NCBI GenBank assembly: GCA_029785375.1
Contig: JAFLZV010000004.1
Span: 1-64,000, forward strand
DNA length: 64,000 nt
Source: Nitrososphaerota archaeon
Lineage (GTDB): Archaea; Thermoproteota; Nitrososphaeria; Nitrososphaerales; Gagatemarchaeaceae
Direction of reading: 5' to 3'
Part shown: positions 11,018 to 36,422 of the stretch, one piece after another
How the letters are laid out: each line of letters opens with the position of its first letter
How positions within the stretch are numbered: position 1 is the stretch's first letter
Position numbers and translations under genes: made by a program
Notes under the pieces: model-generated
The model's database searches: none
What the model saw: the letters and a program-made list of their open reading frames with translations, nothing else
What the model was told of the DNA's origin: nothing

Positions 11018-11133
11018 CGGCGCGACGAAGCGCCCTGACTCGGCGTGACAGTCGTGCCCCGGGTCCGGCCGTCTCCCATGCGAAGGACGCCGCAAAGTCA
11101 GGCCCTGCCGGGGGTCGCCTTCGCAGCGAAAAG

Positions 11134-11148
11134 CGATTAATAATTCGG
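11134..11148 (+). promoter_or_regulatory. putative promoter of the apr operon
   Basis: An AT-rich stretch gattaataattcgg stands out in very GC-rich surroundings about 70 nt before the first gene. It would start a transcript near 11165 with a leader of about 45 nt containing GGGGGGACGGAG, a good ribosome-binding site 5 nt before TTG 11210. Confidence 0.5.
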
Positions 11149-11209
11149 AAAACCGCGTCTTTACGCAAGTGATGCGGCAGTTGGCGCGAACCGGGGGGAC
11201 GGAGTAGCG

Positions 11210-11953
11210 TTGTCGTTCATGGACCTGCCCGTGGCAAACGCCCTCATCGACCTGGGGAGCGTCGTGGTCCTGCTCGCGGTAGTCGCTGGCGCGCTGTACA
11301 AGCTGAAAGGTGGGTCCGCGCATCACTTCGACAGGTGGGACGTGCTGAAGCCGCCCACGAAAGCGGACGTCCCGAAGGGGACGTCGCTGAAGAGCTTCTC
11401 CACGGTCCTGTTCCGCGACGTGTTCACCACCAAGGTCCTAGACTCGTGCAGCAGGTTGAAGCGGGGGGCCCACCTCGCCATCTTCTGGGGCTTCGTCTTT
11501 CTGGGCATATCGACGACGCTGGCGTTCATCACCAACCCCGACAACAGGGTCTTGCCACTGACAAACCCCGTGAAGGTCTTCGGGAACGCGGGGGGGCTGC
11601 TGATCGTGATCGGGTTCGTCTTCATGTTCCACGTCAGGTACCGCGAGCACGCCCCCGTGTGGCGGCTGACCCGGTCCGACTTGTTCATGCTCACCCTCTT
11701 CCTGGCGGTCGTCACGGGGTTCGTCACACAGCAGGCGGTCTACTCGGCGGGGGGGTCTCTCTGGGTCTCTGACGCCTTCTGGGTCCACATGGCCTTCGTG
11801 GTGGTCCTGCTCGCCACGGCTCCCTTCACGAAGTTCTTCCACGCCGTCTCCAAGCCGCTCTCTATCTTCCATGATGAAGTCGACGCCAGGCTGGGGAGGG
11901 AACCTGTCCTCCCGGTGCCCGCCGCGGAGACCAGGGAGGCAGGGCAGGCCTAG
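11210..11953 (+). CDS. membrane haem-b type subunit (HdrE/QmoC/NarI-like), putative Apr membrane anchor
   Basis: A 247-residue membrane protein with five predicted helices at about residues 7-31, 86-108, 124-144, 156-178 and 188-210. Histidines at H88, H141, H193 and H211 sit at helix ends, as for the haem-b ligands of the nitrate reductase gamma/HdrE/QmoC C-terminal family. The segment FRDVFTTKVLDSCSRLKRGA before helix 2 is also typical. The TTG start is chosen because GGAG lies 5 nt upstream; ATG 11219 is possible. The stop overlaps the aprB start by 1 nt (TAGTG), so it is translationally coupled to AprBA and probably exchanges electrons between it and quinone. That role is inferred from context. 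Confidence 0.8.
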   Translation: MSFMDLPVANALIDLGSVVVLLAVVAGALYKLKGGSAHHFDRWDVLKPPTKADVPKGTSLKSFSTVLFRDVFTTKVLDSCSRLKRGAHLAIFWGFVFLGISTTLAFITNPDNRVLPLTNPVKVFGNAGGLLIVIGFVFMFHVRYREHAPVWRLTRSDLFMLTLFLAVVTGFVTQQAVYSAGGSLWVSDAFWVHMAFVVVLLATAPFTKFFHAVSKPLSIFHDEVDARLGREPVLPVPAAETREAGQA

Positions 11954-12405
11954 TGCCGACCTACGTGGACCCGAACAAGTGCGACGGCTGCGGCAAGTGC
12001 GTCGACATCTGTCCCAGCGACATAATGCACCTTTCGAACAGCGTCTTTGGTGGGAGGAAGGCCTACAACGTCGAGCCTGACTACTGCTGGGAGTGCTACT
12101 CCTGTGTGAAGGAATGCCCCCAGCACGCAATAGACATGAGGGGGTACGCGGACTTCAACCCCCTTAACCACAAGCTGACAGTCCTGAGGGACAAGGAAAA
12201 GAACTCCGTGAGCTGGAAGCTGAAGTACAGGAACGGGACGAAGAAGGAGTTCGAATTCCCGATCCGCACAACGCCGTGGGGGTCTATCCCCCCGGCGCAG
12301 AGCCATCCGGCTCCCACCCGAGAGCAGTTCGGCTCGCAGCTCCTCGCCCACGAGCCGGAGTACCTGAAGTCGGAGAGGGGCCTTGTCACGGTGACGACAC
12401 GATGA
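11953..12405 (+). CDS. aprB: adenylylsulfate reductase beta subunit
   Basis: A 150-residue two-[4Fe-4S] ferredoxin-type subunit, the usual AprB length. Cluster ligands are C10, C13, C16 and C20 (KCDGCGKCVDICP) and C45, C48, C51 and C55 (CWECYSCVKECPQHAIDMRGY). After the ferredoxin part comes a beta segment (WKLKYRNGTKKEFEFPI) and the RTTPWGSI motif found in AprB tails that wrap around AprA. AprB carries electrons between the FAD of AprA and the membrane partner. The GTG start overlaps the preceding stop. The alpha subunit follows after 22 nt. Confidence 0.95.
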   Translation: MPTYVDPNKCDGCGKCVDICPSDIMHLSNSVFGGRKAYNVEPDYCWECYSCVKECPQHAIDMRGYADFNPLNHKLTVLRDKEKNSVSWKLKYRNGTKKEFEFPIRTTPWGSIPPAQSHPAPTREQFGSQLLAHEPEYLKSERGLVTVTTR

Positions 12406-12427
12406 CGCTTCCGCACGGTCCTGGAGG

Positions 12428-14266
12428 ATGCTGCTTCTGAAGACGAAGACGGTGGACTGCGACGTCCTCGTCGTGGGAGGCGGGATGGCTGGATGCGGCG
12501 CTGCCTACGAGGCGAGGTACTGGGGGCGGGACCTCAAGATAGTCGTCGTCGAGAAGGGGCACATAGAGAGGAGCGGCGCAGTCGCCATGGGCCTTTCAGC
12601 AATCAATTGCTACATGGGGATGCGGTGGAACGAGAACACCCCCGAGGACTTCGTCAGATACGCCCGGAACGACCTGATGGGGCTGGTGAGGGAGGACCTC
12701 GTCTTCGACATCGCGAGGCACGTAGACGCGACCGTGCACCTGTTCGAAGAGTGGGGGCTCCCCATCGTCTACGACGAGCAGACGAAGAGGTACAAGCGGG
12801 AAGGGCGGTGGCAGATCCTGATACACGGGGAGTCGTACAAGCCGATAGTCGCCGAGGCGGCCACGAAGTCCGCCACGGAAGTGTACAACAGGGTGATGGT
12901 CACCCACCTCCTGACGGACGAGGAGGACGGCGGAAGGATAGCGGGGGCGGTCGGGATAGGGGTGAGGGACGGAGCGTTCTACGTCTTCAGGGCGAAGGCG
13001 GTGATAGTCTGCGCTGGGGGGGCGACCCATGTGTTCAGGCCCAGGTCGGTAGGCGAGGGGGCAGGGAGGACCTGGTACTCTCCCTGGAGCACGGGGTCGG
13101 CCTACGCCCTGCTGGTCGAGGCGGGAGCCGAGATGACGCAGATGGAGAACAAGCTGGTGGTGACCCGCTTCAAGGACGGGTACGGTCCGGTGGGAGCGTG
13201 GTTCTTGGCGCTGAAGGCGAAGGCGTCCAACGCCTACGGCGAGGACTACGAGATGAAGTACAAGGAGGAGCAGCGCGCGCTCTACGGGGACTACGTGGAC
13301 GCCAAACCCTTCCCGACCTGCCTGAGGAACGACGCGATGCTCCGGGAGATCAGGGCGGGACGGAGCCCTATCTACATCCACACGGAGAAGGTCCTCGACA
13401 CCAGGGAGAAGGAAGAGCTCGGCCAGGAGGACTTCCTCGACATGACCATGAGCCAGACCATAGTGTGGGCGTCACAGAACATCGACCCAAAGGTTCGTCC
13501 GTCCGAGCTGCTCCCGTCTGAGCCGTACATCATGGGCTCGCATGCGACCTGTTCGGGAGCCTGGGTCAGCGGACCGGCCGACCTTTCGCCGAAGGAGTGC
13601 TTCTGGGGGTACAACAGGATGACCACAGTGCAGGGGCTGTTCGGGGCCGGGGATACCGTAGGCGGCTCGGCGCACAAGTTTTCTTCAGGCTCCTTCACGG
13701 AAGGGCGGCTCGCAGGGAAGGCGGCGGTCGCCTACATATCGGAGCGGGTCGCGGACCGGAAGCCTTCGGTGACTGAAAAGAAGGTCGAAGCCTTCAGAGA
13801 TGAGATCTTCCAGCCCGTGAAGACGTTCAGGCTCGGACGGAACATGATCACGAAGGGGACAGTGTCCCCGTTCTGCATCTATCCCGACCAGGGGGTCGTT
13901 CGCCTGGAGAAGATAATGGGCGAGTACGTCGGAGGATGGGGCTCGTTCTACACCACCAACGAGGTGCTGCTCGGCAGAGGGTTGGAGCTGCTGGAGATGC
14001 TCAGGGAGGACCTCGACCATCTGGGAGCCGAGGACCTGCATCAGCTGCAGAGGGCCTGGGAGCTCCACCACAGAGTGGTGACCGCAGAGGCCGTGCTCAG
14101 ACACACCCTGTTCAGGAAGGAGACGAGATGGCCCGGGTACTGCTACCGGTCGGACTACCCGGCGCTGGATGAGAAGAACTGGCATGTGTTCGTCAACTCC
14201 AGGTACGACCCCTCGACCGGGGGATGGTCGCTCTTCACCCGGCCTTGCACCAGGCTGGTATCCTGA
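12428..14266 (+). CDS. aprA: adenylylsulfate (APS) reductase alpha subunit
   Basis: A 612-residue flavoprotein of the fumarate reductase/succinate dehydrogenase superfamily, clearly on the AprA branch. The FAD dinucleotide fold is VLVVGGGMAGCGAA (about residues 14-27). AprA-typical blocks are RSGAVAMGLSAIN, DLMGLVREDLVFD, LFEEWGLPI, RFKDGYGPVGAWF, PTCLRNDAMLREIRAGR, LPSEPYIMGSHATCSGAW and GSAHKFSSGSFTEGRLAGK. AprA interconverts APS and sulfite plus AMP at the FAD in the cytoplasm; bacterial and archaeal versions work in sulfate reduction or, in reverse, sulfite oxidation. No sulfate adenylyltransferase, Dsr or complete Qmo genes lie in the window, so direction is open. The alpha subunit of a known archaeal sulfate reducer is somewhat longer. 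Confidence 0.95.
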   Translation: MLLLKTKTVDCDVLVVGGGMAGCGAAYEARYWGRDLKIVVVEKGHIERSGAVAMGLSAINCYMGMRWNENTPEDFVRYARNDLMGLVREDLVFDIARHVDATVHLFEEWGLPIVYDEQTKRYKREGRWQILIHGESYKPIVAEAATKSATEVYNRVMVTHLLTDEEDGGRIAGAVGIGVRDGAFYVFRAKAVIVCAGGATHVFRPRSVGEGAGRTWYSPWSTGSAYALLVEAGAEMTQMENKLVVTRFKDGYGPVGAWFLALKAKASNAYGEDYEMKYKEEQRALYGDYVDAKPFPTCLRNDAMLREIRAGRSPIYIHTEKVLDTREKEELGQEDFLDMTMSQTIVWASQNIDPKVRPSELLPSEPYIMGSHATCSGAWVSGPADLSPKECFWGYNRMTTVQGLFGAGDTVGGSAHKFSSGSFTEGRLAGKAAVAYISERVADRKPSVTEKKVEAFRDEIFQPVKTFRLGRNMITKGTVSPFCIYPDQGVVRLEKIMGEYVGGWGSFYTTNEVLLGRGLELLEMLREDLDHLGAEDLHQLQRAWELHHRVVTAEAVLRHTLFRKETRWPGYCYRSDYPALDEKNWHVFVNSRYDPSTGGWSLFTRPCTRLVS

Positions 14267-14330
14267 CGGTGCGAGCGCAGGCCACCACCCTCTGCCGTGG
14301 ATCGGGACTGCTTCGGTAACAGTTTAGGAC

Positions 14331-16055: not shown

Positions 16056-16684
16056 GTGGACGTGCACCGCGGAGTAGCGATCAAAGGCGCATCGCTGAAC
16101 TGGTACCAGGACAGGAAGGTCGAAGAAGACGTCGTCCTCTTCGCCGAGAGGCTCCATGCGGGACGCCTCTCGAAGGTCCTCGACTTCGGCTGCGGCACGG
16201 GAAGGAACACGGTCTACCCTTGCCAGGATGGGATTCGAGGTGCACGGCTTCGAATGGTCTACTGCGTCGGTCACCCCCTGCAGGCGAGAGCCCTCCAGAC
16301 CGGGCCTGGAAGAGGACGCCCCCGTCTGGGACATGAACAGGACCCCCTCCCCGTATCCCGACAAGGGGCTTGGGCATCCTAGTCATGGAGGTGATGCACC
16401 GCGCATGCGCGGACAACGTCATGCGGATCGCGGCTGAGATCACCCGCCTTACGAGGAGCGGCGGGCTCCTGTACGTGGAGTCTCCAGCCTATGTAGCCCA
16501 CAAACCCCAGTCCTACACCGAGCCCGGGCCCGGGACGTATGTACCGGCGGGCGGAGACGAGCAAAGCGTCCCGCATCATTACTTCAAGAAAGAGGATCCC
16601 TCTCCCTCTTCTCCGGCTTCGACCCGCTTGACCCTGAGCGTGAAATGCGGCTACAACTACTGCCTTACGGCGCGACGAAGGTAA
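16056..16684 (+). pseudogene. decayed class I SAM-dependent methyltransferase
   Basis: Pieces of one methyltransferase occur in order but in different frames. Frame one from GTG 16056 gives NWYQDRKVEEDVVLF and motif I KVLDFGCGTGRNTVY. Near 16217 the continuation LARMGFEVHGFEWSTASVT is in the next frame. Near 16368 the frame changes again for ILVMEVMHRACADNVMRIAA and SGGLLYVESPAY, ending PGTYVPAGGDEQSVPHHYFKKED. LFSGFDPLD needs a further shift near 16595, and GYNYCLTARRR restores the previous frame. At least four indels disrupt the gene, so no full enzyme can be made. Sequencing error could explain one or two but hardly all. It abuts the DUF885 stop (TAG then GTG). Confidence 0.85.
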
Positions 16685-20288: not shown

Positions 20289-20541
20289 CCTCTACGTCGT
20301 AGCGAGGATAGTGAAGGAGTTGAGCGACAATGGCTCGATGAAAAGGACCCAGCTGGCCACGGCGACCAGGCTCTCCTATGACGTCCTGGTGAGGTACCTG
20401 GGATGGATGAACGAGAAGGGGTTCGTGCGCATGGATGGCGAAGAGAACGTCGTTCTTACGGAGGAAGGGCACGATGTCTACGAAAGGCTGGTCGAATGGA
20501 TACTCGAATATGTGGGGAAACTCAGGTTCCCGAGGTTCTGA
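20257..20541 (+). CDS. winged helix-turn-helix regulator
   Basis: A 94-residue protein with a winged-helix fold common in archaeal regulators. Helix 1 is PDLYVVARIVKELSDNG, the HTH is MKRTQLATATRLSYDVLVRY, and the wing is GFVRMDGEENVVLTEEGHDVYERL. The C-terminal helix is hydrophobic (LVEWILEYVGKLRF) and probably dimerises. GTG 20257 overlaps the membrane gene by 32 nt; a later start would cut helix 1. The target is unknown. Confidence 0.75.
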   Translation: MSSRQPSSKPDLYVVARIVKELSDNGSMKRTQLATATRLSYDVLVRYLGWMNEKGFVRMDGEENVVLTEEGHDVYERLVEWILEYVGKLRFPRF

Positions 20542-20560
20542 GAGGAGCCAATGGTTAGCC

Positions 20561-21226
20561 ATGTTCTCAGGGAAAGAGGTCCTGGTCCGCTACGACCGGA
20601 CCCTGAACCCAGAGAAGAACGTCGCCATGGAGCAGGAGGTCTTCGCGAAGGTCGAAGCCAGTGAGCTCCCGGAGTCGGTCAGGTTCTGGGTGGACACCGA
20701 GTGTCTTGTGAGGGGGAAGGTGAAGAACGTCAGGTACGGCTGGTATCACGAGGGGCTGGCGCGGAGGCTCGGGGTGAGGGTCGTCCAGAGAGAGACCGGG
20801 GGCGGGGTGGTCTATCACGACCGCGGGAACCTGAACTGGAGCATATTCGTCAGGTCGGCGGGCCCCTTTCACTCTCCAGCCAAGCTCTTCGGCCAGGCTT
20901 CTGGTTACATCGTCAGGGCGCTCGAGAGGCTCGGCGTCCCCGCCCGGTTCGCGCCCCCAAACAGGGTCGACGTGGGAGGGTACAAGGTGTCAGGGATGGC
21001 AGCGAGGGCCACCCCCAGGGCCCTGCTGGTCCATGGTACCCTCCTCCTGAACACCGACCTTGACAGGCTCAACTTGCTCTGCATCCCGCCGCCGGGGTGC
21101 CCGCCGGTAGCAAACGTCAGCAGATGGGTGGGAGACGTCAGGGCAAGGAGCCTCGTCGACGCGACCGTCCAGGTCCTGAAGGACTCCGGGATGAAGGTCC
21201 GCCTGCGAACGCCTTCGGTCGCATGA
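20561..21226 (+). CDS. lplA: lipoate-protein ligase A, catalytic domain
   Basis: A 221-residue protein of the LplA/LipB/BPL fold. The lipoyl/ATP-binding signature is RETGGGVVYHDRGNLNWSI, and the segment VGGYKVSGMAARATP carries the conserved lysine that contacts lipoyl-AMP. It attaches lipoate to E2 or GcvH proteins. It lacks the accessory C-terminal domain of bacterial LplA, as in bipartite archaeal ligases, and I see no separate LplB partner nearby. Start ATG 20561 is 19 nt after the upstream stop and follows GAGGAG. Octanoyltransferase activity is a less likely alternative. Confidence 0.85.
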   Translation: MFSGKEVLVRYDRTLNPEKNVAMEQEVFAKVEASELPESVRFWVDTECLVRGKVKNVRYGWYHEGLARRLGVRVVQRETGGGVVYHDRGNLNWSIFVRSAGPFHSPAKLFGQASGYIVRALERLGVPARFAPPNRVDVGGYKVSGMAARATPRALLVHGTLLLNTDLDRLNLLCIPPPGCPPVANVSRWVGDVRARSLVDATVQVLKDSGMKVRLRTPSVA

Positions 21227-21286: not shown

Positions 21287-23431
21287 ATGACGACGTCTGG
21301 ATACCGCGCCGCGGGCATGGCGAGCTTCTTCGCGCCCCGGAGCATAGCCGTAGCGGGGGTCTCATCAGACCCCGGGAAGATGGGGTCGATAATATTCGCC
21401 AATCTCCTCGAGAACCGTCAGAGGGGAGTCCTTGGGGCGAGCGTCTACGCCCTCAATCCGACGCATGGTTCTGTGATGGGCCAGCGGGCATACGCGTCGG
21501 TCGGCTCCCTCCCTGAGGTCCCCGAACTGCTTGTGGTAGCCGTCCCCGGGCCGCAGGCTCTGGGGGTGATAGAGTCGGCTGCCAAGGCCGGCGTGAAGGC
21601 TGCCATCGTCGTGACGAGCGGCTACGCCGAAGCCGGCAGGGCGGACGCTGAAGCCAGGATGGCGGAGATCTCCGCCGAGAGCGGGATGAGAATCCTCGGC
21701 CCCAACACCATAGGGTTGGTCGACATGGCGTCAGGGGTAGATACCCTCTTCCTGCGTCCAACGAAGACCCTCCCCGACGGCACCCAGGTCGCGTCGCTCC
21801 TGAAACCGCTGCGCGGCGGGATAGCGATCGTCAGCCAGAGCGGACACTTGGGTCAGGCGCTCATAGAAGAGCTAACCGCCGGAGGGGTGGGGATAAGGGC
21901 CCTGGTGGGGACAGGGAACCAGGCAGACGTCTCGGCGGAGGACGTGATGGAGTACTTTGCAGACGACCCGGAAACGAAGGTGATCGTCCTATACCTGGAA
22001 GGGGTGCGCGACGGGAGGAAGTTCCTGAGCGCAGCCCGCAGAGCGTCCAGGTCAAAACCTGTGGTGGTGTTCAAGGCGGGGAAGACGCCGGGCGGAGCCA
22101 GGGCGGCGCTGACCCACACGGCGTCTCTCGTCGGGGATTATGACGTATACAGCGCCGCGTTCCGGCAGGCAGGGATCGTCGAGGCGGTGAGCTTTCAGGA
22201 GCTTGCCGACTTGGCAGTGGCGCTCCTGATGCTCCCGAAGCCAGCGGGCGGGAGGCTTGCGGTGGTCACCAACGCAGGAGGGGTCGGCACCATCGCGATC
22301 GACGAAGCACAAGAGGCAGGCCTGAAGACAGACCCGCTGGGAAAAGAGGTGGCCGACCGCATCCGCTCCGAGTTCAATGGGTCCGGTTTCGTATACAACG
22401 CGTCCCTCGGGAACCCCGTCGACCTCACGGCGTCTGTGAGCACCGAAGAACTCGCCAGGGTTGTAAAAGAGGTCGTTTCGTCAGAAGGATACGACGTGGG
22501 CCTCGTCCTCCCTACCCATCAGGCCCCAGGCATCGACCCCGACGTGGCAAGCAGGCTGATTCCCGCCATCAGGGGGACCGGGAAGCCTGTGTGCGTGTGC
22601 GTCGTGGGGAGGTCGGAGCTCGCCTCCCGCATCCACCTGGAGTTCATGAAGGCTGGCATCCCCAGTTTCCCGACCCCGGAGAGGGCGGTCCGAGCCCTCG
22701 CGGCGGCTTTGAAATACGCGCAGATGCAGAAAGAGAGGAGTTCTCTGGCGATGGCGACGCCGGCTAAGCGGAAGGCGAGAGAGACGGACATGCCCTTCAC
22801 TCGAGAGGGGCTGGCGAGCCTGCTGGCCAGTCATGGCATAGCGGAACCCCGTTCCATGATGATCAAGACGCAGGCCGATCTCGTGGGACTGAAGAAGTGG
22901 CGGTTCCCCGTCGCCTGCAAACTGCTGTCGCCCGACCTCCCTCACAAGGCAGACGTCGGCGGGGTGGTCCTGGGAGTGCGGTCCCCTGAAGAGGCCGGAG
23001 CTTCCCTCGCCCGGTTCCAGAGCCTAGCCAGGAAAAGGAAGGTCCGGTTCGGAGGCATGCTGGTTCAGGAGATGGTGGAGGACGCCTTGGAACTGATCGT
23101 GGGGTGCACGCGAGACCCTACCTTCGGGCCGGTGGTGGCGGTGGGGCTCGGAGGGACCTACACTGAGCTCGTGCGGGGCCTTTCGTTGGCCGTGGCGCCC
23201 GTGACCCCGGCCTGGGCGAAGTCGATGATCAGCGGGGGCAGCTTAGGGGCCCTGGTGAAGGGATACCGAGGAGGTCCGAGGGCCTCCATAGCGCAGCTGG
23301 CCAACACCGTTTCCAAGTTCTCACAGATACTCCTGGAGCACCCCGAGGTCCAGGAGATCGAGGTGAACCCGCTCATGGCGAAGGGAAGAGAGCTGATTTC
23401 GGTAGACGCCAGGGCGGCCCGAAGCGCCTAA
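21287..23431 (+). CDS. ADP-forming acyl-CoA synthetase (acetate-CoA ligase), fused alpha-beta
   Basis: A 714-residue fusion of both halves of the ACD family. Residues 1-130 are the CoA-binding Rossmann domain (SIAVAGVSSDPGKMGSIIFA). The succinyl-CoA-ligase-like middle contains IVSQSGHLGQALIEE and the phosphohistidine loop ALTHTASLVGDYD. From about residue 495 an ATP-grasp domain follows (FPVACKLLSPDLPHKADVGG, MLVQEMVEDALELIVG, EIEVNPLMAKG). The enzyme makes ATP from acyl-CoA and phosphate, a standard archaeal way to gain ATP from acetyl-, propionyl- or branched acyl-CoA, or works in reverse for activation. The stop overlaps the convergent phosphodiesterase gene by 4 nt. Confidence 0.95.
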   Translation: MTTSGYRAAGMASFFAPRSIAVAGVSSDPGKMGSIIFANLLENRQRGVLGASVYALNPTHGSVMGQRAYASVGSLPEVPELLVVAVPGPQALGVIESAAKAGVKAAIVVTSGYAEAGRADAEARMAEISAESGMRILGPNTIGLVDMASGVDTLFLRPTKTLPDGTQVASLLKPLRGGIAIVSQSGHLGQALIEELTAGGVGIRALVGTGNQADVSAEDVMEYFADDPETKVIVLYLEGVRDGRKFLSAARRASRSKPVVVFKAGKTPGGARAALTHTASLVGDYDVYSAAFRQAGIVEAVSFQELADLAVALLMLPKPAGGRLAVVTNAGGVGTIAIDEAQEAGLKTDPLGKEVADRIRSEFNGSGFVYNASLGNPVDLTASVSTEELARVVKEVVSSEGYDVGLVLPTHQAPGIDPDVASRLIPAIRGTGKPVCVCVVGRSELASRIHLEFMKAGIPSFPTPERAVRALAAALKYAQMQKERSSLAMATPAKRKARETDMPFTREGLASLLASHGIAEPRSMMIKTQADLVGLKKWRFPVACKLLSPDLPHKADVGGVVLGVRSPEEAGASLARFQSLARKRKVRFGGMLVQEMVEDALELIVGCTRDPTFGPVVAVGLGGTYTELVRGLSLAVAPVTPAWAKSMISGGSLGALVKGYRGGPRASIAQLANTVSKFSQILLEHPEVQEIEVNPLMAKGRELISVDARAARSA

Positions 23432-31566: not shown

Positions 31567-32031
31567 ATGCTAGGGGTAGGAGACAAGGCACCTGATTTCG
31601 CCCTCTACGACACAGACCTGAAGCTGAGGAAGACGAAGGATTTCCTCGCCGCTGGGAGGAAGACGATCTTCGCTTTCTACCCGGGGGCGTTCACCGGGGT
31701 ATGCACGAAGGAGATGTGCGCGTTCAGAGACATGCATGAGGGGCTCAAGAAGCTGAGAGCTGATGTTGTCGGGATCTCGGTCGACCCTCCTTTCGCCAAC
31801 AAGGCGTTCGCCGAGCAGCACAACTTGAGCTTTCCTCTGCTCAGTGATTTCAAGCGAGAAGCAATCAGGGAGTACGGTGTCGTCTGGAAGAACCTAGGAG
31901 GGATGGAGGGGTACGACGGCGCCAACAGGGCCATCTTCGTGGTAGACGGATCGGGGAAGATCGTCTACGAGTGGGTAGGAGAGAACCCGGGCAAATACCC
32001 CGACTTCGACGCCATTGACAAGGCGCTCTAG
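31567..32031 (+). CDS. peroxiredoxin (AhpC/TSA, Bcp-like)
   Basis: A 154-residue thioredoxin-fold peroxidase. The peroxidatic cysteine is in YPGAFTGVCTKEMCAFRD; a second Cys five residues later could resolve it, as in atypical two-Cys Bcp proteins. FVVDGSGKIVYEW is the conserved C-terminal strand. It reduces hydroperoxides. ATG 31567 is preferred to TTG 31561 by TATA spacing. It is convergent with the BCCP gene and overlaps its stop by 4 nt. Confidence 0.92.
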   Translation: MLGVGDKAPDFALYDTDLKLRKTKDFLAAGRKTIFAFYPGAFTGVCTKEMCAFRDMHEGLKKLRADVVGISVDPPFANKAFAEQHNLSFPLLSDFKREAIREYGVVWKNLGGMEGYDGANRAIFVVDGSGKIVYEWVGENPGKYPDFDAIDKAL

Positions 32032-32537
32032 CGGACCCTCACGAGCCCCTGGCCGCGCCTGACGGCGGCCCCTTCTTCCGCCAGGACCTCCGCAACTTCG
32101 CAGTCGCGGTCCGCCCTGACTGCCACCTCCATCTTCATCGACTCCAGTATCACCAGGGGGTCCCCAGCCTTCACCTTCGCCCCTTCCTGGACGAGGGCTG
32201 AAATCACCTTGCCAGGCATAGGAGCCACGATGACGTCCTTCGGACTCGCAGAAGTCGGTGCGATTGCTGCGGCTACGGTGCGGGTCGCAGCTGCTACACG
32301 TCGGTAGGCGAAGCGCTCCCCGCCTATGGTCAGCTCTAGACTGGACTGGGTCGCCCTGACAGAGGTTACGATGAGGGGCCTCCCAGACAGCTCGGCAACG
32401 AGCGTCCCCGCAGACGACCCTGGTCTGATCTTCAGCCTGTACGCCTTCCCTGACACCGTCACGCCGTACGCGTCGCCCGCAGAGACCGCGTCGACGGTGA
32501 AGTCGCCGTCGTCGCTGTTCAGCTCATATCGCGTCAT
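32028..32537 (-). CDS. biotin carboxyl carrier protein of acyl-CoA carboxylase
   Basis: A 169-residue protein. The C-terminal biotinyl domain (about 100-169) has PMPGKVISALVQEGAKVKAG and the biotinylation site ILESMKMEV, with the target Lys between the methionines. The N-terminal part is beta-rich and probably docks to the carboxylase, with an Ala-rich linker between. It is the last gene of the carboxylase operon and overlaps the biotin carboxylase gene by 14 nt. It carries carboxybiotin between the two catalytic subunits. Confidence 0.92.
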   Translation of the reverse strand: MTRYELNSDDGDFTVDAVSAGDAYGVTVSGKAYRLKIRPGSSAGTLVAELSGRPLIVTSVRATQSSLELTIGGERFAYRRVAAATRTVAAAIAPTSASPKDVIVAPMPGKVISALVQEGAKVKAGDPLVILESMKMEVAVRADRDCEVAEVLAEEGAAVRRGQGLVRVR

Positions 32538-34038
32538 AGTGCCTCGCCTTCTGGACTGGCTGCTGCCTCATGGGGGCGGGCCGCGTTCGTACCACCGGCC
32601 CCGTGCCTGTTCCAGACTCCATTATCACTGCCGCGATGGCCGCTCCCTGACTGGCGAGCTCGGCCCGGTCGGCGGCGACCTTCTCGACGTATGACTCGAC
32701 GATCCTGTTCCTCCTGAGGAACTCGACGTCGAGATTCCAGCCCGTGAACTCCTCGTGCTCCAGGATGAACCTCTGGAGCCGGACAGTCGTCTTCACCCCC
32801 TCGATTTCGAACTCCGACAAGGCGAGGAGCATCCTCTTCCGGGCATCCTCCATGTCGTTTCCCCTGACCACCAGTTTGGCTAGCAGGGAGTCGTAGTACT
32901 CGGGGACTTCGTAACCGGGGTAGACGGCGGTGTCTATCCTCACCCCGGCGCCCCCGGGAAAGAAGAGCCGCTCTATCCTCCCGCTCGACGGTGCGAACCC
33001 CGCCGCGGGATCTTCAGCGTTGATCCTGCACTGCATGGCCGCCCCCGTCAGCTCAACGTCGTCCTGCCCGTAGTCCACTCCCTCCCCGGCCGCGATCTCG
33101 AGCTGCTCCTTCACGAGGTCCAAACCCGCCCTCATCTCGGTGACGGGATGTTCTACCTGGAGCCTGGAATTGACCTCGATGAAGTAGAAGTTCTGGTCTT
33201 TGTCCATCAGGAACTCGACTGTCCCGACGTTCTCGTAGGAGAGCGCCTTCGCGAGGTCGACGGCGTATCCTGCGACCATCATCCTGGCGAGCTCGTCCAG
33301 GCCAGGGGCAGGGGTCATCTCGAGCAGCTTCTGGTGCCTGCGCTGGATGCTGCACTCCCTCTCGCCAAGCTGGATGACCTTCCCCCTGCCGTCCGAGACT
33401 ATCTGGACTTCGATGTGCCGGGCAGGCTTGACGAGCTTCTCGACGAAGAGCCCCGACTTCCCGAGGGAACGCCTTGTCTCGGTCGAGGCCAGTTTGAACC
33501 CTTGGGCGAGCTGCCTGTCGTCGTAGGCTTCCCGTATCCCACGGCCTCCGCCCCCGAACGCCGCCTTGAGGAGGACCGGGTAGCCGAGCTCGCGGGCCGC
33601 GTCCAGGGCGCTCTCCGGGGTGTAGCATACCGTCTCTCCCCCATCGATAACGGGGACCCCGGCCCGTCTCGCGACCCTCTTGCAGTCGACTTTGTTCCCG
33701 GCGATTACCAGGGTTCTGGGGCTGGGGCCGACGAACTTTATCCCGGCCTGGCGGCACTTCTCAGCCAGGTTCCAGTTCTCGGAGACGAATCCGTATCCCG
33801 GGTGGAGGGCGTCGACCCCGGCGTCCGCGGCGGCCTGCACGAGCTTGTCTATGTTCAGGTAGCTGTCCCCGGGGTCGGCGGGGCCTATCCTTACCGCCTG
33901 GTCGGCCAGCTTGACGTGGAGCGCCTCGGCGTCCACGTCGGAGTATATCGCCACCGTCTTGACCCCAAGGAGCCTGCAGGTCCGGATTATCCGGACTGCT
34001 ATCTCCCCCCGGTTCGCTATGAGGACGCTGTCGAACAA
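32524..34038 (-). CDS. accC: biotin carboxylase subunit of acetyl-/propionyl-CoA carboxylase
   Basis: A 504-residue ATP-grasp enzyme, full length. Features are VLIANRGEIAVRIIRTCR at the N-terminus, VDALHPGYGFVSEN, the glycine-rich ATP lid KAAFGGGGRGI, ERECSIQRRHQKLLE, and the active-site IEVNSRLQVEHPVTEM. It carboxylates biotin on BCCP with bicarbonate and ATP. The start is TTG 34038, 8 nt after the carboxyltransferase stop. In archaea without fatty-acid synthesis, this enzyme usually makes methylmalonyl-CoA or malonyl-CoA for CO2-fixation cycles or propionate metabolism; which applies here is open. Confidence 0.96.
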   Translation of the reverse strand: MFDSVLIANRGEIAVRIIRTCRLLGVKTVAIYSDVDAEALHVKLADQAVRIGPADPGDSYLNIDKLVQAAADAGVDALHPGYGFVSENWNLAEKCRQAGIKFVGPSPRTLVIAGNKVDCKRVARRAGVPVIDGGETVCYTPESALDAARELGYPVLLKAAFGGGGRGIREAYDDRQLAQGFKLASTETRRSLGKSGLFVEKLVKPARHIEVQIVSDGRGKVIQLGERECSIQRRHQKLLEMTPAPGLDELARMMVAGYAVDLAKALSYENVGTVEFLMDKDQNFYFIEVNSRLQVEHPVTEMRAGLDLVKEQLEIAAGEGVDYGQDDVELTGAAMQCRINAEDPAAGFAPSSGRIERLFFPGGAGVRIDTAVYPGYEVPEYYDSLLAKLVVRGNDMEDARKRMLLALSEFEIEGVKTTVRLQRFILEHEEFTGWNLDVEFLRRNRIVESYVEKVAADRAELASQGAAIAAVIMESGTGTGPVVRTRPAPMRQQPVQKARHYDAI

Positions 34039-34045
34039 CTGAAGG

Positions 34046-35596
34046 TCACAGCTGGATGTTCCCGTGCTTCTTGGCTGGTCTGAACTCGGACTTCGACTTC
34101 AGGGACCCGAAGGCTGCGACGAGCTTGGGCCTGGTCGAGGTCGGCGAGATCACTTCGTCGATTATTCCCCTCCCCGCCGCGACGTAGGGGTTGGCGAACT
34201 TCTTCCTGTATTCGGCTGCGAGCCGCTTCCTGGTGGCGTCCGGATCGGCAGAGGCCTCTATCTCCTTCCTGTAGATTATGCTGATCGCTCCCTCCGGGCC
34301 CATGACCGCGATTTCCGCCCCGGGCCACGCGTAGCAGATGTCTGCCTTGCTGTATTTCGACCCCATGGCGCAGTAGGCGCCTCCGTAGGCCCTCTTCACT
34401 ACCACTGTGACTTTCGGGACGGTCGCTTCCGAATAGGCGTACAGGAGCTTGGCGCCGTGGCGGATGAGGCCCCGGTGCTCCTGGTCGGTACCCGGTATGT
34501 ACCCGGGGACGTCCACCAGGGTGAGGATGGGGATGTTGAACGCGTCACAGAAGCGGACGAACCTCGCGGCCTTGTCAGAGCTGTCGACGTCGAGCGCCCC
34601 TGAGAGACATGCGGGCTGGTTGGCGACTATGCCGACGGTGCTGCCTGCGAGCCGTGCGAACCCCACGATGACGCTCTGCGCCCAGGCGGCGTGCACCTCG
34701 AGGAGGTCCTGATCGTCTACAAGCCTCAGGATGATGGTCCTCATGTCGTAGGTCTTGTACGGTTCGCTGGGAGCGAGCGCGTTCATCTCCGGGTCTTCCT
34801 TGGCCGCCTCGTTCGGGGTCGTGACGGCGGGCGGGAGCTCTGAGCTGTTCTGTGGGAGGAAGGACAGGAGCCGCTTGATGGACGAGAAGCATTCCTTCTC
34901 GCTCTCAGAAACGAAGTGGGCTACTCCGCTCTGTGCAGAGTGGACGGCGGCTCCGCCCAGCTCTTCGGATGTGACAGTCTCCCCCAGCGCGGCCTTCACC
35001 ACCTCGGGGCCGGTCACGAACATCTGTCCGATCCCCTTTACCATGAACACGAAGTCGGTCAGGGCGGGCGAGTAGGCAGCGGCGCCTGCGCTCGGCCCGA
35101 GGACTGCACTGATCTGTGGAATCACTCCGGACGCCAGGGTGTTCCGGAAGAACATCTCGCTCACCCCTGCGAGGCTTAAGACCCCCTCCTGTATCCTGGC
35201 ACCACCGGAGTCGTTGAGCCCGATGATCGGCGCGCCGTTCTTGAGCGCGAGGTCCATCACCTTCGTGATCTTTTTCATGAGCGCCTCACCGAGGGAGCCG
35301 CCGAAGACCGTGAAGTCGTGAGAGTAGACGTAGGCGAGCCTGCCGTCAATCCTCCCGTACCCAGTGACCACGCCGTCCCCGAGCGGCTTCGAGCGGTCCA
35401 TCCCCAAGTCTGTCGACCTGTGGGTCACGAATTTGTCCAGCTCGTTGAACGTCCCCGGGTCGAAGAGGAGGTCTATCCGTTCGCGGGCCGTAAGCTTCCC
35501 CTTCCTGTGTTGTTCGTCGATCCGGTCCTTCCCTCCGCCCAGCTCCGCGACCCTGTTCATCTCTCCGAGCTCCCTCTCGGCGTCGCCTGCACTCAA
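34046..35596 (-). CDS. pccB: carboxyltransferase subunit of acetyl-/propionyl-CoA carboxylase
   Basis: A 516-residue protein of the propionyl-CoA carboxylase beta family with two crotonase-like halves. Characteristic blocks are GKLTARERIDLLFDPGTFNE, the oxyanion-hole segments LNDSGGARIQEGVLSLAG and VVKRAYGGAYCAMGSKY, and TLVDVPGYIPGTDQEHRGLI. TTG 35596 is chosen because a TATA-like ctttttatc (minus strand, about 35621-35629) lies some 28 nt upstream and because the frame then starts like homologues; upstream codons have no family match. It moves the carboxyl group from biotin to acyl-CoA. Confidence 0.95.
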   Translation of the reverse strand: MSAGDAERELGEMNRVAELGGGKDRIDEQHRKGKLTARERIDLLFDPGTFNELDKFVTHRSTDLGMDRSKPLGDGVVTGYGRIDGRLAYVYSHDFTVFGGSLGEALMKKITKVMDLALKNGAPIIGLNDSGGARIQEGVLSLAGVSEMFFRNTLASGVIPQISAVLGPSAGAAAYSPALTDFVFMVKGIGQMFVTGPEVVKAALGETVTSEELGGAAVHSAQSGVAHFVSESEKECFSSIKRLLSFLPQNSSELPPAVTTPNEAAKEDPEMNALAPSEPYKTYDMRTIILRLVDDQDLLEVHAAWAQSVIVGFARLAGSTVGIVANQPACLSGALDVDSSDKAARFVRFCDAFNIPILTLVDVPGYIPGTDQEHRGLIRHGAKLLYAYSEATVPKVTVVVKRAYGGAYCAMGSKYSKADICYAWPGAEIAVMGPEGAISIIYRKEIEASADPDATRKRLAAEYRKKFANPYVAAGRGIIDEVISPTSTRPKLVAAFGSLKSKSEFRPAKKHGNIQL

Positions 35597-35681
35597 TTGG
35601 GGGTCGGGCCCAGTCTGTCGATAAAAAGGATGGGCAGCCGGGGCCGTGCCGTCGGTCGCCAGTAGTCGATTGACGAAGGGG

Positions 35682-36422
35682 CTAGCCCTGCTCCTTGAGC
35701 CACTCGAGATCCTCGGCGCGTACGACCCTGGCTCTCCCGGCAAGCGAGACCGACAGGCTTCCGTCGTCTTCGAGCGCCGCTGCCGTGCATGAAAACGGGT
35801 TTTCTTCGGTTTTCAGCTTGACCAGGACCTGCTTCCCGAGGGTGGCCACCCTCCTCGTCCATTCCTCCCGCACGTCCTCCCCGGCGGCCCATCTGGCGTA
35901 GAGCACGGAGAAAGAGCCGAGGATGGAGCGCATGACTTCGGGGATTGCGACAGGCCTGCCCAGTTCTTCCTCGACCGTGGTCGCCTCTCCTCCCAGAGAC
36001 TGCAGGCCTGCCGAGCGCCTGTTGCAGTCTACCCCTATCCCGACTATGATTGAGGACACCACGCCCCCCGACGCTTGCGCCTCGGCGATCACCCCTGCAA
36101 GTTTCTTCCCACCGAGCATGACGTCGTTGGGCCATCGAATCGTTGGAGCAAGGCCGGTGCTCTTCTCGATGCCTTCGGCAACCGCCGTGGTGGAGACGAT
36201 GGTAGCCAGCTCGGGGAGGGCAATCTGGTCCGGCCTGAGCACGAACGACAGGTAGAGCCCGCCTTCCGGGGACAGCCACCTCCTCCCCAGCCTCCCCGTG
36301 CCTGAGACCTGAGATTTGGCGACCACCGTCGTGCCTTCTGGTGCGCCCTCCGCTGCGAGGCCCCTCGCCACTTCCTGGGTGGACCTGACTTCGTCTAGCT
36401 CTATGAAGGACCACCTGATCAA
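35682..36422 (-). CDS. birA: biotin-protein ligase
   Basis: A 246-residue ligase. Biotin/ATP-binding motifs are VAKSQVSGTGRLGRRWLSPE (GRGRxGRxW type) and IRWPNDVMLGGKKLAGVIAE (KWPND type). A C-terminal SH3-like domain follows (LGKQVLVKLKTEENPFSCTA). There is no N-terminal HTH, so it is a catalytic ligase rather than a repressor. TTG 36422 is about 29 nt after a TATA-like gcatatcgg on the minus strand. It heads the carboxylase operon, whose BCCP is its obvious substrate; 85 nt and a second promoter separate it from pccB. Confidence 0.93.
   Translation of the reverse strand: MIRWSFIELDEVRSTQEVARGLAAEGAPEGTTVVAKSQVSGTGRLGRRWLSPEGGLYLSFVLRPDQIALPELATIVSTTAVAEGIEKSTGLAPTIRWPNDVMLGGKKLAGVIAEAQASGGVVSSIIVGIGVDCNRRSAGLQSLGGEATTVEEELGRPVAIPEVMRSILGSFSVLYARWAAGEDVREEWTRRVATLGKQVLVKLKTEENPFSCTAAALEDDGSLSVSLAGRARVVRAEDLEWLKEQG

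Follow-up and report, generated by a model that had tools for sequence, protein, structure and literature searches.

A predicted aprMBA operon of Apr lineage I with a QmoC-like membrane subunit suggests sulfite oxidation in a Nitrososphaerales archaeon

The window, a 64,000-nucleotide stretch of a Nitrososphaerota genome assembly (728 kb, estimated 61% complete), carries three overlapping or closely spaced genes for a membrane protein and the two subunits of adenylylsulfate (APS) reductase, AprB and AprA (Table 1), and the three-gene operon of the original prediction is real. The membrane gene and aprB overlap by 1 base, 22 bases separate aprB from aprA, and translation of the membrane gene could start equally well at an in-frame ATG at 11219. 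A TATA-like TTAATAAT at 11137-11144, found by eye upstream of the membrane gene, is a candidate promoter element. AprB passed the TIGR02060 model (178 bits against a cut-off of 136) and AprA the TIGR02061 model (902 bits against 642), and a third-codon G+C of 85-91% in the three genes supports coding. The host, expected to be Nitrososphaeria-like, belongs to the same genus as MAG A_CRE_07 (G027 below), which its authors put in GTDB Nitrososphaerales UBA183 (PMC9326234). It is an archaeon of acid-mine type with kinship to the ammonia oxidisers; an alternative host from the Lutacidiplasmatales was rejected on the basis of kinship. AprA of the window's type occurs in 6 of the 31 genomes of this genus, and aprA in 14 of the 400 genomes of the class as sampled, making it a patchy trait.

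Table 1. Features of the aprMBA locus and of a possibly related gene in the window.
Feature	Coordinates	Strand	Description
Promoter candidate	11125..11148	+	TATA-like, AT-rich, in GC-rich spacer; by eye only
aprMBA cassette	11087..14274	+	Missing at the same site in the complete relative G016
Membrane protein gene (aprM position)	11210..11953	+	TTG start; five helices; QmoC/NarI-type cytochrome b domain without Fe-S domain
H88 codon	11471..11473	+	Invariant; predicted haem ligand, presumed equivalent of NarI H56
H193 codon	11786..11788	+	Equivalent to NarI H187 by alignment
H211 codon	11840..11842	+	Invariant; predicted haem ligand, equivalent to NarI H205
aprB	11953..12405	+	APS reductase iron-sulfur subunit, two [4Fe-4S]; lineage-I loop pattern
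aprA	12428..14266	+	APS reductase FAD subunit, Apr lineage I
Lipoate-protein ligase	20435..21226	+	57-58% identical to ligase in relatives' Hdr/LbpA sulfur islands

We then placed the enzyme by AprA phylogeny, which the original prediction had proposed for separating oxidising from reducing branches, and by features of AprB. The closest AprA sequences outside the genus come from other archaea, including Nitrososphaeria and Marsarchaeota (74-83% identity), followed by those of Thermoplasmata including Sysuiplasma (~70%) and of lineage-I sulfur-oxidising bacteria (about 60-70%). In the AprA tree, the window's clade, Sysuiplasma and relatives, and the lineage-I bacteria form one group (support 98/98), which excludes the sulfate reducers as well as the lineage-II-type second copies found in Thiobacillus and others; the window's AprA sits on the sulfur-oxidiser branch, apart from sulfate reducers, with lineage-I phylogeny judged on AprA only. 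Its genus groups with other Nitrososphaeria and Marsarchaeota (support 99 in one tree and 100/100 in another). Lineage-I AprB is marked by the lack of a Qmo-type loop and by a mostly acidic insertion between strands 8 and 9 (PMC2211403). In the window's AprB the KGxD/EK/R loop characteristic of Qmo-dependent enzymes is missing and the lineage-I insertion between these strands is present, here as DKEKN of mixed charge. The aprM-aprB-aprA order, the AprA sequence (about 60-70% identical) and the AprB loop pattern are shared with the aprMBA of the sulfur oxidisers Allochromatium vinosum, Thiobacillus and Pelagibacter, from which the window differs in its archaeal host and in having no adjacent sat. 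Judged from its sequence, the locus belongs to the oxidative "Apr lineage I" as an aprMBA operon.

Within the wider lineage, bacterial lineage-I AprA branches inside the archaeal sequences, and the archaea as a single clade are rejected weakly (AU p 0.03), a weak hint that the lineage-I enzyme of abundant marine bacteria may have arisen among archaea. At nine Thermoplasmata loci with related aprBA, no membrane gene was found upstream of aprB.

The original prediction had remarked that no sat or dsr genes lie nearby, which is true of the window but not of its genus: sat lies at most about 40 bases after aprA in four same-genus genomes (G009, G016, G027 and G029), and dsrAB lies ~6 kb upstream of the apr operon in G016. 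The aprMBA-sat arrangement was also seen, by eye, at Centralia and Sysuiplasma loci. Upstream of its operon, G027 carries an island of Hdr-like subunits, a QmoC-like pair, DsrE, a GcvH-like LbpA, lipoate ligase, TusA, DsrE2 and an ArsR-type gene, and from this set HdrB, the QmoC-like protein, lipoate ligase and DsrE2 recur on the apr contig of G013. LbpA is indispensable to sHdr, a sulfur-oxidising system (PMC10332631). The QmoC-like protein of G027 is split into a membrane gene and an Fe-S gene adjoining the Hdr-like subunits (locus L130, 9202-10391), and this pair is a candidate for the quinone link of the island. In G016, DsrAB, a DsrM-like protein and a DsrK-Rieske fusion stand in the island's place, again with TusA and DsrE2. 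The fusion (locus L128, 15840-17897) is a DsrK-like protein with a C-terminal Rieske domain (matches to NF045796 and TIGR02694), adjoining dsrAB and the DsrM-like gene. Only one of the six Apr-carrying genomes of the genus, G016, has dsrA, and all five Apr-carrying relatives have COX1 (haem-copper oxidase). No sat, dsrA, dsrAB, Hdr island, DsrE2 or COX1 was found in the window's genome, which, at 61% complete, does not allow absence to be judged.

The placement of the relatives' aprMBA-sat in Hdr-like/LbpA/TusA/DsrE or DsrAB islands, together with their haem-copper oxidase, favours sulfite oxidation over the published reading of sulfate reduction. Oxidation of sulfite to APS, a direction already put forward in the original prediction, is supported by the lineage-I AprA and AprB and by these sulfur-oxidation islands, and we consider it the probable direction of the window's AprMBA (probability about 0.7), bearing in mind that APS reductase is reversible and that no sequence feature sets its direction. 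The published reading concerns UBA183/UBA164 Nitrososphaeria of the same organism family, whose aprAB were reported earlier and interpreted as serving sulfate reduction (PMC10833072). Quinol electrons would then pass through AprM to AprBA, which would reduce APS to sulfite, and DsrAB would reduce sulfite to sulfide. The same paper describes such MAGs as having aprAB, sat, dsrMKOP and a dsrAB placed in the reductive archaeal clade, and the case is strongest for G016, with its dsrAB and DsrM-like and DsrK-like genes near aprMBA-sat. However, the AprBA is of lineage I rather than the sulfate-reducer type, dsrA is confined to G016 among the six Apr-carrying genomes of the genus, TusA and DsrE2 lie beside aprMBA, the relatives possess a haem-copper oxidase, and the paper itself found aprAB only in aerobes or facultative anaerobes (PMC10833072). 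Sulfate reduction by the window's enzyme appears unlikely.

The window's operon forms a solitary 3.2 kb cassette between two unrelated genes, encoding a PALP enzyme and DUF885, without sat, TusA, DsrE2 or an ArsR regulator. In the complete relative G016, whose flanks are 91-92% identical, the PALP and DUF885 genes adjoin at this site, indicating that the cassette was either gained in the window or lost in G016. Because it is mostly 74-89% identical to G016's own aprMBA, the cassette is not simply that operon moved. We found no repeats of note at its ends. Its isolation between unrelated genes, and the lack of any sulfur-oxidation island found in the window's genome, would fit sulfite detoxification or another side role (e.g. 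on sulfite from organosulfur breakdown) in place of energy conservation. Yet the genome in which no island was found is 61% complete, the presence of a membrane partner implies that the enzyme is coupled to quinone, and the close relative G013 (97-99% identity with the window over the regions they share) has both this locus and the Hdr-island locus, leaving a side role very improbable beside sulfite oxidation for energy. The window's species may also have the Hdr-island locus, in the missing 39% of its genome.

Further copies and neighbours were noted. The island aprA of G013 (locus L132, contig C5), compared with window positions 12410-13460, is 91-98% identical in some 150-base steps and 79-84% in others, a patchwork reflecting either gene conversion or an assembly mix-up. 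G009 has a second apr copy, on contig C4, with 94-96% identity to the window; it was set aside, G009 being 77% identical elsewhere and 8% contaminated. The window's lipoate-protein ligase is a possible, unproven member of a sulfur pathway. Two overlapping short frames at 16056-16684 look, by eye, like one methyltransferase broken by a frameshift, and 21287-23431 and 32028-36422 encode a CoA-binding/ATP-grasp acyl-CoA synthetase and a carboxyltransferase (Pfam) with adjoining biotin-type genes (by eye), a set as expected for propionyl/acetyl-CoA carboxylation.

The membrane protein had been predicted to replace Qmo as a one-subunit link, a role that our comparisons support, although it is not new: the gene stands where aprM is already known from lineage-I aprMBA. 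A membrane protein of 230-300 aa is encoded directly upstream of aprB in the lineage-I bacteria and in archaeal members of their clade. Most of these proteins match the window's significantly (E 1e-9 to 1e-18 for most lineage-I bacterial matches), and the AprM of Pelagibacter, which has no direct match, nonetheless aligns in the family alignment. AprM upstream of aprBA is the known arrangement of lineage-I aprMBA (PMC2211403, PMC3779200), and the presence of a homologous gene in the same place marks the window's membrane partner, by position, as one of this known kind. No QmoA or QmoB gene adjoins the window's operon, and for qmoABC in the 61% complete genome, a search with the qmoC model alone found only the aprM gene. 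Against the QmoC family the protein scores 73.5 bits (cut-off 300), matching profile positions 177-357 only, the C-terminal membrane half; plain QmoC membership was rejected on this score and on the lack of an N-terminal Fe-S domain. With the QmoC of QmoABC it shares the membrane-domain motifs NPVKxxGN, TGF and VHxxF...TKFxH, whereas the His of the QmoC HPVK motif is Asn in the window. With lineage-I AprM it shares two invariant histidines and a C-terminal G...LP motif, but it is closer to QmoC than other AprM are (73.5 versus 27-56 bits) and keeps H193. An AprM versus DsrM profile comparison gave a probability of 17% and was disregarded, and the QmoC fragment had no match in the PDB.

Four candidate haem histidines had been proposed in the membrane protein, a number that did not survive comparison: of its eight histidines, two (H88 and H211) are conserved without exception in 52 homologues, and the other six are not. 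Position 193 is a histidine in 7 of the 52, all from the window's clade, and in QmoC, and is mostly Tyr or Phe in other AprM. NarI of nitrate reductase, also a protein of five membrane helices, has four ligands for two haems: H56 and H205 hold a haem near the cytoplasmic side, and H66 and H187 hold the distal haem. Alignment of the AprM family profile to NarI puts H211 on H205 and H193 on H187, while NarI H66 has no equivalent in the window's subunit; we infer that H88 corresponds to H56, given that it lies where the second membrane helix begins and given the NarI pattern. AprM would keep NarI's cytoplasm-side haem without the distal one, because the only two invariant histidines match that ligand pair, suggesting one haem b and not two. 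A two-haem NarI-type cytochrome b, which requires four ligand histidines, was rejected. Two structure models (mean pLDDT 82 and 89) show five long helices, and the top fold matches, EtfD and NarI, had TM-scores of 0.28-0.50 (0.28-0.43 for NarI), which lend weak support. That AprM is a haem-less anchor, with electrons leaving AprB by another carrier, would agree with its 2013 description as lacking similarity to any known domain or cofactor site (PMC3779200), but is highly doubtful in view of the family-wide QmoC similarity (27-74 bits) and the two invariant histidines.

For sulfite oxidation with a haem-bearing AprM, we propose that the membrane-attached APS reductase would run as a sulfite oxidase, in which AprBA would join sulfite and AMP into APS on AprA and AprB would dock on AprM. 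Electrons would pass from FAD through the two [4Fe-4S] clusters of AprB to a single haem b that H88 and H211 of AprM would bind close to the cytoplasmic face, and from there to quinone, the presumed acceptor, and finally to oxygen. APS would then be converted to sulfate, with formation of ATP, by a Sat presumably encoded at another place in the genome. If haem sits only on the cytoplasmic side, this step would probably not in itself move charge across the membrane.

The AprM tree conflicts with the AprA tree: in it the window's genus stands apart from the other 27 AprM, all of them, on a branch with support 100/99. Constraining the genus with Nitrososphaeria and Marsarchaeota AprM was rejected (p 0.036), as was constraining it with all archaeal AprM (p 0.0006), in tests whose groups were chosen after the sequences were seen and on a tree containing long branches. 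AprM of the genus shares the QmoC motifs, including H193, and three members of the window's clade score 68-73.5 bits against QmoC versus 27-56 bits in nine other AprM. We tentatively raise the possibility that in the ancestor of the UBA183 genus a cytochrome b domain derived from QmoC took the place of the original AprM, either entirely or in the membrane core, and that the cassette then moved as a unit. Against this, the window's clade and AprM have K215 and the C-terminal LP motif in common, and all AprM fall on one side of a reduced tree (95/78), although they do not in a fuller set (AU p 0.34).

The aprMBA kind, the AprM position and aprAB in such archaea were already known; the window's AprM is, by sequence comparison, more QmoC-like than other archaeal AprM. 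We found no earlier report of aprM in archaea in the part of the literature covered, and the passages covered of the UBA183/UBA164 paper make no mention of an AprM partner or lineage-I placement (PMC10833072). If displacement occurred, an APS reductase would have been wired to the membrane through a stand-alone Qmo fragment. A haem b held by H88 and H211 at the cytoplasmic face would offer a testable answer to how AprM could carry electrons. These results suggest that some acid-mine Nitrososphaeria published as likely sulfate reducers may instead oxidise sulfite, which would reverse their place in the sulfur cycle.
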